A DNA stretch of 64,000 nucleotides from the NCBI RefSeq assembly GCF_007747215.1, contig NZ_CP036273.1, positions 5,254,322 to 5,318,321 of the forward strand, in the 5' to 3' direction. Both the position numbers and the translations under genes were made by a program. The notes beneath the pieces are model-generated. The model was given only the letters and a program-made list of their open reading frames with translations, was not told where the DNA came from and did not search any database. Of the stretch, positions 21,470-42,836 are shown one piece after another. Source of the DNA: Urbifossiella limnaea. Lineage in GTDB: Bacteria > Planctomycetota > Planctomycetia > Gemmatales > Gemmataceae. The first letter of the stretch is position 1. The number at the start of each line of letters is the position of its first letter.

Positions 21470-22738
21470 TCAGTTACCGGCCGAGTCGAGTTGGTCGAGC
21501 ATGTGGCCGAGTTTCTCGCGCTTGGTCTGCAAGTAGCTGCGGTTGTGCTCGCCGGGCGGAATCTGGATCGGCACCCGGTCCGTGATCCGCAGCCCATACC
21601 CGTCCAGGCCGATCACCTTCGCGGGGTTGTTCGTCAGCAGCCGGATGTCGCGCACGCCCAGGTCGTGGAGGATTTGCGCCCCGATGCCGTAGTGCCGCAG
21701 GTCCGACGGGAAGCCGAGCCGGCGGTTCGCCTCGACCGTGTCCAGCTTCTCCTCGGTCTGCAGCTTGTACGCCCGCAGTTTGTTCAGCAGCCCGATCCCG
21801 CGGCCCTCCTGGCGGACGTACACGATCACGCCCTTGCCCGCCTCCGCGACCTTCCGCATGGCGAGCTGCAACTGCGGCCCGCAGTCGCACTTCATCGAGT
21901 GGAGCGCGTCGCCGGTCAGGCACTCGCTGTGCATCCGCACCAGCACCGGCTCCGCCTGCTCCGCCACCACCCCCGGTGCGGATTCGACGCCGACGCCGCC
22001 GAGTGTCAGCGCCAGGTGCGGCTCCTGGTCCACGACCGACGTGTACGCGAAGAGGTCGAACTCGCCGAACTCCGTCGGCAACTTCAGGGCGATTTCGCGC
22101 TTGACGAGCTTCTCGCGGCGGCGGCGGTACTCGATCAGGTCGGCGATGGTGCACATCTTCAGCTGGTGTCGGTCGCAGAACGCCCGCAGGTCCGGCAGGC
22201 GGGCCATCGACCCGTCCTCGTTCAGAATCTCGCAGATGAACGCCACCTCGCGCAGCCCCGCCAGCCGGCACAGATCGACGCTCCCCTCGGTATGGCCCGC
22301 GCGGACCAGGACGCCACCCTGGCGGGCGATGAGGCCGTCCATGTGCCCCTTGTCGCGCACCAGGTCACTCGGACCGCTCGCGGGGTCGGCGCACACCTGG
22401 ATCGTGCGGCAGCGGTCGAACGCGGAGATGCCGGTGGTGACGCCGTCGCGGGCGTCGAAGTTGTGCGTGAACGGCGTGGCGGTGGGGTCGAGGTGGACGC
22501 CCGGGAGCAGGTCGAGGCCGAGGCGGGTGGCGTTGGCCGAGGACATGGCGACGCACGGCCGGCCGGCCTGGCGGACGATGAAGTTCACCGCCGCCGGCGT
22601 GACGTGCTCGGCGGCCATGACGAGGTCGCCCTCGTTCTCCCGCTGCTCGTCATCGACCAGGACGATCATCCGCCCCGCCGTCAGCTCGGCAAGGGCGTCG
22701 TCGATGGGGCAGAACCCGGCGGCAGTGCGGTGCGACAT
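21470..22738 (-). CDS. ribBA: Bifunctional 3,4-dihydroxy-2-butanone 4-phosphate synthase / GTP cyclohydrolase II
   Basis: 422 residues. The N-terminal half (to about 205) is RibB, with the acidic metal loop DDEQRENEGDLV and the conserved AGHTEGSVDL. The C-terminal half is RibA, with the zinc site CLTGDALHSMKCDCG and RQEGRGIGL. Together these make the two precursors of riboflavin. Both halves look complete. A TATAAT hexamer sits exactly 6 nt before the ATG, so the mRNA may be leaderless. No other rib gene is near. Confidence 0.97.
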   Translation of the reverse strand: MSHRTAAGFCPIDDALAELTAGRMIVLVDDEQRENEGDLVMAAEHVTPAAVNFIVRQAGRPCVAMSSANATRLGLDLLPGVHLDPTATPFTHNFDARDGVTTGISAFDRCRTIQVCADPASGPSDLVRDKGHMDGLIARQGGVLVRAGHTEGSVDLCRLAGLREVAFICEILNEDGSMARLPDLRAFCDRHQLKMCTIADLIEYRRRREKLVKREIALKLPTEFGEFDLFAYTSVVDQEPHLALTLGGVGVESAPGVVAEQAEPVLVRMHSECLTGDALHSMKCDCGPQLQLAMRKVAEAGKGVIVYVRQEGRGIGLLNKLRAYKLQTEEKLDTVEANRRLGFPSDLRHYGIGAQILHDLGVRDIRLLTNNPAKVIGLDGYGLRITDRVPIQIPPGEHNRSYLQTKREKLGHMLDQLDSAGN

Positions 22739-22744
22739 GCCAGG

Positions 22745-22750
22745 ATTATA
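22745..22750 (-). promoter_or_regulatory. TATAAT -10 box 6 nt before the ribBA start codon
   Basis: The minus strand reads GCTATAATCCTGGCATG: a perfect -10 hexamer, 6 nt, then the ATG. Transcription would start at or next to the A of the start codon. No -35 of good match is seen 16-18 nt upstream. Confidence 0.6.
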
Positions 22751-22762
22751 GCCCGCCGGCCG

Positions 22763-24250
22763 TCACATCCCCATGCCACCGGGGCCGCCACCGCCGGGCG
22801 GGCCTTCAGACTCACGCGTCTGGACCGGTCGCATGTCGCTCTCGACGCGCACGACCCGCCACCGTAGCCCCTGCCGCGGGCCGCTCCCAGCCGGCGGCGA
22901 GATCGTGCCGGATTCGGGGTTCGCCGACGCCCGCAGCTGCTTCAGGTCGGCCAGAAGGGCCGGGTCGGTACACTCCACCACGACCCGCCCGCGGGCCGCC
23001 AGGTCGGCTTTTTTCGACTCCACCGGCAGCTCCACCGGCACCCGCACCTCGACGGCCGAGTCGGTGAACGTCATCAGCTCGTGGACGTCGGGCGTGTTGC
23101 GGAGGCGCTCCCCCGCGGGCACGATGCCGCCGGCATTCCACACGTTGAAGAACTGCCGGGACTGGTCGGCGCCCGGCGACTTGTTGCCGGGGAGGCGGAA
23201 CAGCTTGGCAGCGGTCACGCTGAAGACGTGATCCGGCATCTGCCAGCCGAGCCCGGCCGGCACGCCGACGCCCGCCAACCGGGTCGCACCACCGTCGGGG
23301 CTGAGCAACCGCAAATCCGGATCGCCGGCCAACCCCGCGTGGACGTAGGCGGCGTAGGGGCGGAAAACCCGGTCGCGGCCGTCGGCCATGAACTGCTGGA
23401 CGACGCTGCGACCCTGCAGTTGTAGGTCGCGGACGAGCCAGCCGTAGGACGTCAGCTGCGGGTCGTCGCGCTGGAAGCCGTTCTGCGACGGCACCACCTG
23501 CCACTGCCGGCCGAGGCTCCCCTCGCTGCCGGCGACGGCGTCCACGGCCTTCAGCGGGAACTGCATCGGGAACTTCCCCTCGGGGCAGACGAGGGTGCCG
23601 GTGGCGACGCAGGCAACGCCGCCCGCCTGGATCGACCAGTCGCGGAGGCCGCCGGGCACGTAGGTACACGCCTTCGGGTTCCGCAGCGCGGTGCGGACCA
23701 GGTCGCACTGCGAGAACGCAACCCAGTCAACCTTGTACCGGGCTTCCAGCGCGGTGGCGTTGTCGGGGCCCATGCTCGCCCGCTCGGCCGGGTCGCGGGT
23801 GCGGTAGAACGCCGGCGTCAGCTTCTCGTCGAGCACCTGCCCGACCCACTTGCCGACCTCGGACTCGGCCTCCGCCCGCACCGCCACCTCGATGGCAAAC
23901 AGGTACGTGAAGTACACGAGCCCGACGACCACGGCCCCCCACCACGCGGCGTTGATGAGGTCGAACCCGAACAGCTCGCCCGTGCGGGTGCCTTCCGAGT
24001 TGCGGACGATCCGCCGGGCGGCAAACGCCAGCACGACGGCCACGACCGGCAGGAAGAGCATCTGTGGCGCGATGAGCGGCGACTTCGACTTCCACGAGGT
24101 GACCGCAAGTACGGCCAGGACGCCGACAAAGATCACGGTGACGACGAACGCGGCGACGGCCATCCACGAGACCGGAACGTACCCGACGGGGTCGGCGGTG
24201 GAGCCGAGCGGCGGGCCGGGGTCGCGGGCGGTCGGGGGCGTGTCGGCCAT
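22763..24250 (-). CDS. Membrane protein of unknown function
   Basis: 495 residues. After a proline-rich start there are three hydrophobic segments (about 28-50, 61-78 and 100-120). A long soluble domain from about 125 to the end follows, with FYRTRDPAERASMGPDNATALEARY, NPKACTYVPGG and VPVELPVESKKADL. The tail ends in glycine-rich GGGGPGGMGM. I recognise no family. Codon use and composition fit a real gene, and it is the only frame that gives clean membrane helices. It lies downstream of the rpoZ-gmk run on the same strand, separated by an inverted repeat, and upstream of ribBA. Confidence 0.7.
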   Translation of the reverse strand: MADTPPTARDPGPPLGSTADPVGYVPVSWMAVAAFVVTVIFVGVLAVLAVTSWKSKSPLIAPQMLFLPVVAVVLAFAARRIVRNSEGTRTGELFGFDLINAAWWGAVVVGLVYFTYLFAIEVAVRAEAESEVGKWVGQVLDEKLTPAFYRTRDPAERASMGPDNATALEARYKVDWVAFSQCDLVRTALRNPKACTYVPGGLRDWSIQAGGVACVATGTLVCPEGKFPMQFPLKAVDAVAGSEGSLGRQWQVVPSQNGFQRDDPQLTSYGWLVRDLQLQGRSVVQQFMADGRDRVFRPYAAYVHAGLAGDPDLRLLSPDGGATRLAGVGVPAGLGWQMPDHVFSVTAAKLFRLPGNKSPGADQSRQFFNVWNAGGIVPAGERLRNTPDVHELMTFTDSAVEVRVPVELPVESKKADLAARGRVVVECTDPALLADLKQLRASANPESGTISPPAGSGPRQGLRWRVVRVESDMRPVQTRESEGPPGGGGPGGMGM

Positions 24251-34756: not shown

Positions 34757-35557
34757 TTACCCCCGCCGGGCGGGTAAGGCAAGGAAGCTGGCCGACACGT
34801 CGCGGATGTGTTCGACCGCCTCCGGCGGGACGCGTTCCACCGTGCCGTCGCCGCGCTCGAGTTCCAGCCCGTCGAACGACAGCGCGCGGAGGCGGCCGGT
34901 CGGGCGCGACCCGTCGGCTCGTTCCAGCTCCACGTCGCGGCCGACGAAGCCGACGCCGCCCGCCCACGCCGCCTCGACCGCGGCCCGGTCGCCGGCCAGC
35001 AGCCGCCGCCACGCCGCGTCCAGGTTCCGTACCACGGCCCCGGCCGCGTCGCGCAGCTCGACCGGCGAGCCGGTCACCAGCCCGAGCGAGGTCGCGTCCG
35101 GGAGGCCCAGCGCGGCGAACTCGTCGGCCGACTGCGCGAGGTTCAGCCCGACCCCGCACACGACCCGCGCCGCCTGCTCGATCAGGATGCCGCACACCTT
35201 CTTGCCCTGAACCAGCAGGTCGTTCGGCCACTTGATCCGGGCCTCGACGCCGGCCAACTCGCGCACCGCGGCGGCGACCGCGACCGCCGCCCACGCGGTG
35301 AGAATCACCGGGCGCCGGAGGTCGGCCGGCGGGGTCAGCACGACCGACATCAGCAGGGCCGCCCCGGGCCGGCTCCGCCACGGCCGGCCGAAGCGACCGC
35401 GGCCCGCGGTCTGGTTCCGCGCCACGATCACGAGGCCATCGTCCGTCCCGGCCGGCAGCGCGGCGGCGAACGAGTTCGTGCTGTCGAGTTCGTCGAAGAC
35501 GAGGACGCGGCGGCCGACCCGCTCGGTGGCGAACGTCCATTCGGCGGGGGGCGTCAC
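34757..35557 (-). CDS. birA: Biotin--[acetyl-CoA-carboxylase] ligase
   Basis: 266 residues. The catalytic domain is complete: DELDSTNSFAAAL, the biotinyl-AMP loop GRGRFGRPWRS, KWPNDLLVQGKKVCGILIE and GVGLNLAQ. The N-terminal DNA-binding domain of E. coli BirA is missing, so this is a monofunctional ligase without the repressor role. It overlaps nadC by 4 bp (ATGA). Confidence 0.94.
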   Translation of the reverse strand: MTPPAEWTFATERVGRRVLVFDELDSTNSFAAALPAGTDDGLVIVARNQTAGRGRFGRPWRSRPGAALLMSVVLTPPADLRRPVILTAWAAVAVAAAVRELAGVEARIKWPNDLLVQGKKVCGILIEQAARVVCGVGLNLAQSADEFAALGLPDATSLGLVTGSPVELRDAAGAVVRNLDAAWRRLLAGDRAAVEAAWAGGVGFVGRDVELERADGSRPTGRLRALSFDGLELERGDGTVERVPPEAVEHIRDVSASFLALPARRG

Positions 35558-36417
35558 GATTGGTAGTCGAGGGCGATGTCGAGGGCGGGGGCGGAGTGCG
35601 TGAGGGCGCCGACGCTGATGCGGTCCACGCCCGTCGCGGCCGCCGCGGCGATGGTGTCGAGCGTGATTCCCCCGGACGCTTCGAGCCTCGTACCGGGCGA
35701 AACCGCGTCGCGGCGGGCGACCGCGGTGCGCATCACGCCGGGCGGCATGTTGTCGAGCAACACGATGTCGGCCTTCGCGGCGAGGGCGTGTTCGAGCTGT
35801 TCCATGGTGTCCACTTCCACCTCGATCGGCAGGCCGGCGTTGGCGGCGCGGGCCAGTTCGACGGCGCGGCGCACGTCGCCGCCGAGGCCGGCGAGGTGGT
35901 TGTCCTTGATGAGCACGCCGTCGTACAGCCCGACGCGGTGGTTCGTGCCGCCGCCCGCCCGCACGGCGTACTTCTCCAGCAATCGCCAGCCCGGCGCCGT
36001 CTTTCGGGTGTCGAGAACCGCGGCGTGCGTGCCGGCAACCGCGTCGACATACCGCCGCGTCAGCGACGCGACGCCCGACAGCCGTTGCAGGAAATTGAGC
36101 GCGGTGCGCTCCGCGGCGAGGACGGAGCGCAACGGCCCGGCGACGGTGGCGAGCACGTCGCCGCGGGCGAGCCGGGTGCCGTCGGCGAGCACGGGCGTGA
36201 AGGCGAGTGCGGGATCGACGGCGGCGCAGACCAGCGCCGCGGCGGGGAGGCCGGCGGCCACGCCGGCGGTCCGGGCGACGAATGCGGCGCGTCCGGGCTG
36301 CTCCGCGGGGATAAGGGAGGCGCTGGTCCGGTCGCCGGCGTCGCCCAGGTCCTCGGCGAGGGCGAGGGCCACGAGCGCGCGGCAGGCGGCGGTTTCGGCC
36401 GGGTTGAACGCAGACAT
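35554..36417 (-). CDS. nadC: Nicotinate-nucleotide pyrophosphorylase (quinolinate phosphoribosyltransferase)
   Basis: 287 residues from ATG 36417. ALAEDLGDAGDRTS opens the family, and ERTALNFLQRLSGVASLT, DTRKTAPGWRLLEKYAV and GGGTNHRVGLYDGVLIKDNH form the quinolinate and PRPP sites. It makes NaMN in NAD synthesis. The start codon lies 6 nt after a TATGCT hexamer (possible leaderless mRNA). birA follows with a 4-bp overlap. Confidence 0.96.
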   Translation of the reverse strand: MSAFNPAETAACRALVALALAEDLGDAGDRTSASLIPAEQPGRAAFVARTAGVAAGLPAAALVCAAVDPALAFTPVLADGTRLARGDVLATVAGPLRSVLAAERTALNFLQRLSGVASLTRRYVDAVAGTHAAVLDTRKTAPGWRLLEKYAVRAGGGTNHRVGLYDGVLIKDNHLAGLGGDVRRAVELARAANAGLPIEVEVDTMEQLEHALAAKADIVLLDNMPPGVMRTAVARRDAVSPGTRLEASGGITLDTIAAAAATGVDRISVGALTHSAPALDIALDYQS

Positions 36418-36423
36418 GCGGGT

Positions 36424-36429
36424 AGCATA
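36424..36429 (-). promoter_or_regulatory. TATGCT -10-like box 6 nt before nadC
   Basis: The minus strand reads GCGTATGCTACCCGCATG. Spacing to the ATG is the same 6 nt as at ribBA and at the DUF1501 gene starting at 42800. It lies between nadC and the response regulator gene. Confidence 0.5.
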
Positions 36430-36437
36430 CGCGCCGG

Positions 36438-36869
36438 TCACTTCCGCCGGCACACTTCCGTGAGCATCGCGTCGAGCGTGGTTGGGTCCACGGGCTTGGT
36501 GAGGTGCAGGTCGAAGCCGGCCTCGGCGGTGCGGCGGCGGTCCTCGGCCTGGCCCCACCCCGTCAGCGCGATGAGCGCCACCCGCTCCCCCCACGCCGCC
36601 GCCCGGATGCGGCGGGCGACTCCGTTGCCGTCGAGCCGGGGCATGCCGATGTCCAGCACCGCCACGTCCGGCCGGAACTCTTCCGCCACGTCGACCGCCT
36701 CCATCCCGTCGGCCGCGGTACGGACCTCGTTTCCCAGCAACTCCAGGAGCGTCGCCAGGCTTTCCGCCGCGTCGGTGTTGTCGTCCGCGACCAGTACCTT
36801 CCGTCTGCCACCCGTAACACGCGCGCCGGCGTCCGCCACGTCGCACACTCCCACGGTCGCGCCGGACAT
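36438..36869 (-). CDS. Single-domain response regulator
   Basis: 143 residues from ATG 36869; the frame is open to 36989, but the added stretch is not domain-like. A receiver domain covers about 20-140: KVLVADDNTDAAESLATLL with the acidic pair, VAVLDIGMPRLDG with the phospho-Asp, LTGWGQ and LTKPVD with the conserved Lys. There is no output domain, so it would pass phosphate on or act by protein contact. No histidine kinase is next to it. The 166-bp gap upstream (36870-37035) shows nothing recognisable. Confidence 0.9.
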   Translation of the reverse strand: MSGATVGVCDVADAGARVTGGRRKVLVADDNTDAAESLATLLELLGNEVRTAADGMEAVDVAEEFRPDVAVLDIGMPRLDGNGVARRIRAAAWGERVALIALTGWGQAEDRRRTAEAGFDLHLTKPVDPTTLDAMLTEVCRRK

Positions 36870-40491: not shown

Positions 40492-41412
40492 TCAGGCGAG
40501 CGGGTCCGGGTTCCACCAGCACGGCCCCTTGTCGCGGCGGGCCTCGGCAGCACGACGACGCACGTCGGCCATCTCCGCGTCACCAAGCGGGCGGAACGAC
40601 CGCGCGGCGGCGAACGCGGCGTCTTGCTCGTTCGGGTAGCTGAGGCCGAGCAGCGTCACGTCGGGGTCGAGCGTCAGCGTGTAGTGCAGGCACTCCTCGA
40701 CCGTCAGCCGCGGCAGCACGGCAGCACCGTCGTCGGCGCCGCCGCTCGACACCTTGCCGCGCGGGCGGACCGTCAGCGGCTGGTTGTAGCCGGTCGTGTC
40801 GCCGAGCAGTTTGCCGCCGCCGAACGTCTTGAAGCACACCGTACCCACTCCGGCCGCCTTCGCCCGCGGCAGCACGTCGGTAACGTAGCGGTCGTCCACG
40901 AACGGTCCGAGCGGGAACATCACCACGTCGCACACTCCCGCTTCGAGCGCCTTCTGAAGCACGTCCGGGTTGTGCGAGCTGATGCCGCGGTATCGCGTGG
41001 TGCCGGCGCGGACCGCGTCCGCGAGCTGGTCGAAGCCGCCACCGGGGTGGCAGAGGCGGTCGAAGGTCGCGGGGTCGGACAGGTCGTGGAACACGAGCAG
41101 ATCGACGTGACCGAGCCCGAGGCGGGACAGCGAGCCTTCGATTTGCAGGCCGACGGGCGCGTCGTGGTGGTCGATCTTGTCGATCACGAACACGCCGTCG
41201 CGCCGCCCGCGCACGGCGGCGCCGACGATCTCCTCGGAGTAGCCGTCCTCGTAATTGGGGGCGGTGTCGATCACGTTCAGGCCGGCGTCGAGAGCGCGGC
41301 GGGCGGTGGCGACGCAGGTGTCGAAGGGGACGCTGCGGTCGGCGAGGTCGCCGACGCCGAGTTGCGTGGCAACGAACCCGGTGCGGCCGAGCGGGCGGCG
41401 GGGGGTGAACAT
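40492..41412 (-). CDS. Aldo/keto reductase
   Basis: 306 residues. LGRTGFVATQLGVG opens the barrel. DTAPNYEDGYSEE carries the catalytic Asp and Tyr, and VIDKIDHHD the Lys. The family reduces aldehydes and ketones or oxidises sugars with NADPH; the subfamily resembles oxidoreductases used on sugars. There is no signal peptide. Its ATG overlaps the TAA of the upstream DUF1501 gene (TAATG), so translation is coupled to that exported protein, which suggests a common pathway. Confidence 0.9.
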   Translation of the reverse strand: MFTPRRPLGRTGFVATQLGVGDLADRSVPFDTCVATARRALDAGLNVIDTAPNYEDGYSEEIVGAAVRGRRDGVFVIDKIDHHDAPVGLQIEGSLSRLGLGHVDLLVFHDLSDPATFDRLCHPGGGFDQLADAVRAGTTRYRGISSHNPDVLQKALEAGVCDVVMFPLGPFVDDRYVTDVLPRAKAAGVGTVCFKTFGGGKLLGDTTGYNQPLTVRPRGKVSSGGADDGAAVLPRLTVEECLHYTLTLDPDVTLLGLSYPNEQDAAFAAARSFRPLGDAEMADVRRRAAEARRDKGPCWWNPDPLA

Positions 41413-42800
41413 TAGCTGAGGATCCCGCGGATCACCTCGCCGTCGCAGAGCGTCAGCGGGCGGCCGAGGCGGTCGTGAATCTCGGTCCGCGGGTCCACGC
41501 CGAGGCTGTGGTACACCGTCGCGGCGAGGTCGGCCGGGGTCGTCGGCAGGTTTGCCGGCTCGGCCGCATACTTGTCGCTGGCGCCGTACACGGCCCCGCC
41601 CTTCACGCCGCCGCCGGCCAGCACCGTCGTGAACACCCGGCCCCAGTGGTCGCGACCGTCACGGCCGGCCCCGGCGCCGCCGGGCACGGACTGACCCACC
41701 TTCGGCGTGCGACCCATTTCGCCGGTCCACACTACAAGCGTCTCGTCGAGCATGCCGCGGGCCGACAGGTCGTCGAGCAGCGCCGAGAAGGCGCGGTCGG
41801 TGACCGGGCACAGCCGCGTCTTCAGGTCGATGAAGTTGCGGCTGTGCGTGTCCCAGTAGACGCTCACGTTTGTGATGCCGTCGTTCGGCCAGAACACGGT
41901 GACGAGCGGCACCCCGGCTTCGATGAGCCGGCGGGCCTGCAACACGCTCTGACCGTGGCGGTTCATGCCGTAGCGTTCGCGGACCGCCATCGGCTCGCGG
42001 GTCAGGTCGAACGCCGCCCGCGCCGCCGGGCTGGCGATCAGCTCGAAGGCACGCCGGCGGTTCGCCTCCGCGGCGTCGAGTTCGGCCGCGGCCATGCGCT
42101 GCACCTGCCGGTCGAGCGAGTCGAGGAGCCCCCGCCTGCCGCCGACGCGGTCGGCGTCGAGCCCCGCGGACAGGGTCAGTTCGCCGACCTTGTAGTCGGG
42201 CGAGCTGGCGTCGGCGTCGATCCGCATCGGGTTGTACACGGGGCCGAGCAGGCCGGCGCCCTGGCCGTGACTTTCTTCCACGAACCGCGGCGCGCCGTCG
42301 GGCACGACCGGCATCATGGATACGTAGGGCGGCAGCGCCCCCGCCCCGCGGCCGAGCTTCGCCAGCACCGCGCCGTAGTTCGGCCAGTCGTCCGCGATCG
42401 GCCCGGCGGGGGCGGCCCGGCCGGTGAGCAGGTGGTGCGTGGCGGTCAGGTGGTTTACGTCCGGGTGGGTCATCGACCGGATGAGGCACAGCTTGTCGGC
42501 GCGCTTCGCCAGCTCGGGCAGGTGTTCGCAGACGCGCAAGCCGGGGACGGCGGTCGGGATGGTGCCGAACTCGCCGCGGTACACGTCCGGGGCGTCCGGT
42601 TTCGGGTCCCAGGTGTCCTGCTGTGCGGGGCCGCCCCACATGAACAGGACGATGCACGACTTCGCCCGGCCGCGGCGCGGGCTGGGCTTGTCGGCGGCGC
42701 GGAGGTAGTCGGGGAGGCCGAGGCCGAACAGGCTGAGCCCGCCGGCGCGGAGGAACTCGCGGCGGCGGACGGCGGGGTTGAAGAAGCGTGCGGTCGGCAT
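41412..42800 (-). CDS. DUF1501 family Tat-exported protein
   Basis: 462 residues. The Tat signal is VRRREFLRAGG (11-21). The core has VLFMWGGPAQQDTWDPKPDAP, GEFGTIPTAVPGLRVCEHLPELA, GEMGRTPKVGQ and GRDHWGR. Most similar by eye to the DUF1501 at 3747-5114 (same EFGTIPTA block). No DUF1549 partner; instead an aldo/keto reductase follows, coupled through TAATG. A TAGACT hexamer lies exactly 6 nt before the ATG. Confidence 0.92.
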   Translation of the reverse strand: MPTARFFNPAVRRREFLRAGGLSLFGLGLPDYLRAADKPSPRRGRAKSCIVLFMWGGPAQQDTWDPKPDAPDVYRGEFGTIPTAVPGLRVCEHLPELAKRADKLCLIRSMTHPDVNHLTATHHLLTGRAAPAGPIADDWPNYGAVLAKLGRGAGALPPYVSMMPVVPDGAPRFVEESHGQGAGLLGPVYNPMRIDADASSPDYKVGELTLSAGLDADRVGGRRGLLDSLDRQVQRMAAAELDAAEANRRRAFELIASPAARAAFDLTREPMAVRERYGMNRHGQSVLQARRLIEAGVPLVTVFWPNDGITNVSVYWDTHSRNFIDLKTRLCPVTDRAFSALLDDLSARGMLDETLVVWTGEMGRTPKVGQSVPGGAGAGRDGRDHWGRVFTTVLAGGGVKGGAVYGASDKYAAEPANLPTTPADLAATVYHSLGVDPRTEIHDRLGRPLTLCDGEVIRGILS

Positions 42801-42806
42801 GAGTTT

Positions 42807-42812
42807 AGTCTA
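42807..42812 (-). promoter_or_regulatory. TAGACT -10-like box 6 nt before the DUF1501 start
   Basis: The minus strand reads GGGTAGACTAAACTCATG. The spacing is the same 6 nt as at ribBA and nadC, which suggests a leaderless transcript. TGGCAC about 17 nt further upstream is a weak -35 candidate. Confidence 0.5.
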
Positions 42813-42836
42813 CCCGCGCCGCCGCGCCGGTGCCAG

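Follow-up and report, generated by a model that had tools for sequence, protein, structure and literature searches.

Leaderless expression has been reported in archaea and in bacterial groups that include Actinobacteria and Deinococcus-Thermus (main texts of PMC3160421 and PMC12340547). The TA-led genes described in the main text of Zheng et al. 2011 (PMC3160421) carry a TA-like signal approximately 10 bp before the start, have no Shine–Dalgarno (SD) motif and often form a minority class, and leaderless shares are higher in information storage and processing, RNA processing and transcription. In Deinococcus-Thermus, experiments show that a TANNNT motif located a short, constant distance upstream of the open reading frame (ORF) drives leaderless mRNA, with a −35 element that enhances this but is not required (PMC12340547, main text). 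Planctomycetes are unnamed in the list of leaderless groups of PMC3160421, and the string ‘planctom’ is absent from its main text, although its ‘Other Bacteria’ row, which gives 8 of 20 genomes, may include some; the string is likewise absent from the main text of PMC12340547, in which a supplementary figure on ‘common phyla’ may cover the group. The available text of a survey of anti-SD types (PMC10783764) lists planctomycete classes and does not discuss leaderless genes in them. Nakagawa et al. 2017 (PMC5397173) count Planctomycetes among the phyla in which base bias points to leaderless mRNA and/or use of S1, a hint that, in the available text, concerns one planctomycete species, comes without gene-level or spacing evidence and does not separate leaderless mRNA from S1. 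No start-site study of Planctomycetes was recognised in a literature search of the titles and abstracts of freely available papers.

Here we describe candidate leaderless genes in a 64,000-nt stretch of the Urbifossiella limnaea chromosome (the window) and in a sample of the whole genome. Like the TA-led genes in the main text of PMC3160421, they combine a TA-like signal near the start with the absence of an SD motif, form a minority class and lean, suggestively, towards information processing and RNA modification. With the Deinococcus-Thermus genes they share TANNNT at a short fixed spacing; the class comprises approximately 30% of ORFs there (PMC12340547, main text) and approximately 4% of ATG-start genes here, and was shown by experiment there and is proposed from sequence here. 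The kind of gene is already known, and what would be new is its taxonomic occurrence in a planctomycete.

Candidate promoters at three genes of the window

A preliminary description had placed −10 hexamers exactly 6 nt ahead of the ATG of ribBA, nadC and a DUF1501 gene, with no ribosome site in any of the 6-nt gaps; direct reading of the letters confirmed both statements (Table 1). At all three genes, the −35 region at 17-nt spacing matches TTGACA weakly; for ribBA, the match comprises the first T, a position that is enriched across the leaderless set, and the last A. The 5′ end of the ribBA mRNA is predicted to be the A of the ATG. The DUF1501 gene was identified by Pfam and gave no match in an NCBIfam scan. 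DUF1501 genes are very numerous, with 46 matches in this genome when 40 of 169 candidates were scored, and at least 20 matches in 38 of the 41 genomes searched; a second DUF1501 gene (L013:9630-11036) is also a leaderless candidate.

Table 1 Features of the three candidate leaderless genes in the window (positions are those of the window)
Feature	Position	Strand	Remarks
ribBA −10 hexamer TATAAT	22745..22750	−	gap CCTGGC, ATG from 22738
ribBA −35 region TGGGGA	22768..22773	−	17-nt spacing
ribBA gene	21470..22738	−	ATG start 22738; NCBIfam match
nadC −10 hexamer TATGCT	36424..36429	−	gap ACCCGC, ATG from 36417
nadC −35 region TGCCGG	36447..36452	−	17-nt spacing
nadC gene	35554..36417	−	ATG start 36417; NCBIfam match
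DUF1501 gene −10 hexamer TAGACT	42807..42812	−	gap AAACTC, ATG from 42800
DUF1501 gene −35 region TGGCAC	42830..42835	−	17-nt spacing
DUF1501 gene	41412..42800	−	ATG start 42800; Pfam

The pattern TANNNTN6ATG occurs only three times in the window on both strands, each time at a predicted gene start. This count is not significant alone (shuffled sequences gave a mean of 1.16, and three or more in 9 of 100 shuffles), and the test was therefore moved to the genome scale.

Spacing of TAnnnT and properties of the candidate class

The genome is a single contig of 7.8 Mb, which we sampled through the window and 100 stretches of 20 kb along the chromosome (L001–L100; 2.06 Mb, 1,627 genes, 71.5% G+C). 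Genes were called by coding score and start-codon type alone, without an upstream motif, and of the 1,163 ATG genes found, 1,145 were kept with a 120-nt cut-off at stretch ends and 1,140 with a 150-nt cut-off. The preliminary description had predicted that a histogram of the distance from TAnnnT to the start codon would peak sharply at 6 nt, and such a peak was obtained in the 2.06-Mb sample: the hexamer precedes the ATG by 6 nt in 39 genes, by 7 nt in 14 and by 8 nt in 4 (n = 1,145), and by each distance from 2 to 5 nt in only 0–2 genes. When every upstream column was permuted among genes (n = 1,140), the expected count at 6 nt was 4.5, with a maximum of 11 in 1,000 permutations. Seven other hexamer patterns of equal A+T content showed no peak (1–7 genes each at 6 nt). 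Across the whole genome, the pattern occurs 229 times at spacing 6 and 71 times at spacing 12, and reversed-pattern controls occur 145 and 148 times, respectively; these counts include matches away from gene starts, and those at spacing 12, which fall in the depleted zone described below, may be slightly low as a control, for which reason the reversed patterns were also counted. Subtraction of the approximately 8.5 genes expected by chance from the 57 candidates found among 1,140 yields the estimate of approximately 4% of ATG-start genes, and the null places the chance share of the 6-nt cases at approximately 12%.

Beyond the peak, TAnnnT is depleted. At 9–14 nt, only 3 genes carry the hexamer, compared with a permutation null of 14.2 (minimum of 4 in 1,000 permutations) and 11–29 genes for the seven control patterns, and from approximately 23 nt it again exceeds the controls (208 genes at 23–40 nt, compared with 52–100). 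Given this depletion and the excess that follows, leader lengths look bimodal: there is either no leader or, assuming the same start point relative to the hexamer as for the leaderless genes, one of at least approximately 17 nt. Such a distribution may reflect selection against leaders that cannot accommodate a ribosome site but already exceed the length at which a 5′ AUG is recognized.

A 4-nt SD motif precedes 2 of the 57 candidates, compared with 151 of 280 leadered genes and 390 of 803 other ATG genes. The preliminary description had ascribed hexamers further upstream with clear ribosome sites to other genes of the window; TAnnnT-type hexamers do lie 20–39 nt upstream of 13 window genes, but clear ribosome sites hold for only part of them, given the share of leadered ATG genes with the motif genome-wide. 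The other 129 of the 280 leadered ATG genes (window and L001–L100) lack a 4-nt SD motif, which indicates that an SD-less yet leadered class exists. The candidates comprise 57 of 1,140 ATG genes and 2 of 398 GTG genes (Fisher’s test, P = 6 × 10−6), a preference to be read with the prior of the gene finder in mind, which favours ATG; GTG genes show no signal, and a leaderless GTG class was rejected on this count.

Like leadered promoters, the candidates are A-rich at hexamer positions 4 and 5, which sets them apart from TAnnnT across the genome (P = 3 × 10−5 and 2 × 10−8). A T is found 23 nt before the −10 hexamer (17-nt spacer) in 22 of the 57 candidates (P = 5 × 10−6) and in 114 of the 280 leadered genes. 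The −35 element is otherwise weak, as the closest match to TTGACA among the candidates did not surpass that in shifted controls. Among the 56 candidates with a known neighbour, 15 lie less than 40 nt behind a gene on the same strand, compared with 16 of 278 leadered genes. A marked difference in codon usage was considered and rejected (leaderless score of 0.322 versus 0.366 for leadered genes, P = 0.002, and 0.339 for other genes, P = 0.18).

Family scans covered 42 of the 57 candidates. From the 6-nt group, 36 of 39 were included, the other three being short or cut by the end of a stretch; the 7-nt group contributed 6 of 14, chosen from its longer members, and the 8-nt group none of 4. Proteins were categorized by reading family names. 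By this measure, 9 of the 42 act in amino-acid or vitamin biosynthesis and 7 are DNA-repair or RNA-modification enzymes, compared with 2 and 0 of 40 controls drawn at random from 247 leadered genes of 100–1,070 amino acids. The combined difference (16 of 42 versus 2 of 40; Fisher’s test, P = 3 × 10−4) is only suggestive of a functional lean, because the categories were set after the candidates had been viewed and were assigned by family name.

Conservation at single genes and across the phylum

The nadC arrangement is kept within the genus. In all six same-genus genomes (U. limnaea included), TA...T lies exactly 6 nt ahead of the aligned ATG and residue 1 falls within the protein match. The hexamers themselves vary (TATGCT, TATCCT, TACCGT (twice), TAGGGT and TAGGCT), and across the upstream 40 nt the only invariant positions are T−12, A−11, T−7 and one G at −15; as read from these alignments, it is TA...T itself that leaves the footprint. 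Of 24 nadC loci from outside the genus, three (L187, L200 and L202) carry TAnnnT 6–8 nt ahead of an ATG that coincides with the aligned start or lies close to it.

For ribBA, the ten closest relatives (80–87% identity) comprise eight labelled Gemmataceae or Gemmata, one labelled Planctomycetia and one labelled bacterium. Among 29 relatives (L101–L129), the hexamer lies at 6–8 nt only in the nearest, L101, in which a Met aligns with residue 1 of ribBA; it lies at 20–50 nt in 24 of the 29, and 14 of the 29 have an SD motif. Given that a single relative shares the arrangement, the leader of ribBA was probably lost recently. More distant planctomycete-type ribBA loci (L130–L134 and L179), which may form one group as judged from identity rather than from a tree, carry TTGATT-17-TAC(C/T)AT-8/9-ATG in four of six cases; these four (L130, L131, L132 and L134) are near-leaderless, with 8–9 nt to the ATG and a good −35 element. 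Conservation is lacking at the DUF1501 site, for which a single ATG start in the 29 relative loci has the arrangement (L234, 46% identity), and this gene is the weakest of the three cases.

In the Gemmataceae (95 genomes, U. limnaea included), whole-genome counts at spacing 6 exceed those at spacing 12 in 90 genomes, with z > 3 in 46 and z < −3 in none; the reversed-pattern control gave 2 and 0, respectively. Across the phylum, z exceeds 3 in 52 of the 118 other genomes (119 with U. limnaea, which this count omits) and falls below −3 in none (reversed control, 2 and 0), and in genomes with a low background the proportion with z > 3 is 39 of 53. Two whole genomes of the same class and of the high-G+C, low-background type, G087 and G105, show no clear excess (130 versus 111 and 230 versus 193 at spacings 6 and 12), and offer a natural comparison in which the leaderless class may be lost or absent. 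G193, a family member with 58% G+C, showed no peak in a sample (5 of 229 ATG genes at 6–8 nt; controls, 3–13); its whole-genome counts differ (744 versus 571), yet its reversed control shifts likewise (813 versus 699). In G090, the reversed control itself differs strongly between spacings (128 versus 30), possibly owing to a repeat or to unusual base composition. Judged from counts that extend beyond gene starts, the leaderless trait looks widespread but patchy in the phylum.

Interpretation and implications

The 6-nt peak, the depletion at 9–14 nt, the absence of SD motifs, the use of ATG, the −10 core, the −35 T and the nadC footprint support the proposal of the preliminary description that the three genes are leaderless. 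Leaderless mRNAs, made from a housekeeping-type promoter whose −10 box precedes the start codon by 6 nt or, in fewer cases, by 7 or 8 nt, appear to be the best reading of these data (probability of roughly 0.88). Against this reading stand the weak −35 element, the missing peak in the G193 sample, the chance share of the 6-nt cases, the frequent position of candidates close behind a same-strand gene, and the scarcity of the arrangement at nadC outside the genus and among the DUF1501 relatives. With the box at this distance, RNA polymerase would start the transcript at, or within approximately 2 nt of, the A of the ATG, and the mRNA would offer no room for a ribosome site. Elsewhere, translation of leaderless mRNAs begins by direct recognition of the 5′-terminal AUG, and ribosomes may enter these transcripts in the same way.

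Transcripts with a very short leader (1–5 nt) and a start point that varies by a few nucleotides would accommodate the genes with gaps of 7 and 8 nt (14 and 4, respectively), as well as the four distant planctomycete ribBA loci with 8–9 nt. However, the mode is exactly 6 nt and, taken with the depletion at 9–14 nt, suggests that leaders of a few nucleotides are disfavoured; we consider such transcripts unlikely. It is more improbable still that the start codons are misplaced, the hexamer being an ordinary −10 box and the true start an in-frame codon further downstream that follows a leader of the usual kind. The gene finder, which used coding score and start-codon type alone, and the unconserved N terminus of the DUF1501 protein leave room for such errors, but misplaced starts would not give rise to a peak located precisely 6 nt ahead of the ATG that was called, and residue 1 lies inside the match in all six nadC genomes and is aligned with a Met in the nearest ribBA relative.

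We give hardly any weight to chance matches among many upstream regions: the three matches in the window are unremarkable in themselves, but the genome-scale peak is nearly ninefold above the null (39 versus 4.5), and the chance risk that remains for any single gene is roughly 12%. In some bacteria, A/T patches near starts help initiation without an SD motif, and TAnnnT could on this basis be a signal for translation or structure, in the form of an unpaired A/T patch ahead of the start codon, instead of a promoter. Against this, the peak is found for TAnnnT only and for none of the seven other A/T patterns, the core resembles that of leadered −10 boxes and the −35 T stands at 17-nt spacing, so that a signal of this kind is about as improbable as chance.

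The leaderless reading would extend this mode of expression to a phylum for which we found one species-level hint in the literature (PMC5397173, available text), and TAnnnT would provide a usable signal for the annotation of gene starts in high-G+C planctomycetes. The depletion at 9–14 nt represents a measurable limit on leader length. On balance, we lean towards a picture in which leaderless expression is a lineage-dependent second expression mode in much of Planctomycetota. It would have been acquired and lost from one family to another and even at individual genes, with nadC retaining it within the genus and ribBA exchanging a leadered for a leaderless form. Leaders of 1–8 nt would fall in a forbidden zone and hardly ever occur, promoters being placed to give either no leader or one of approximately 17 nt and more. 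Because ribBA would occur in leadered and leaderless versions in close relatives, it may permit direct tests of leader removal.
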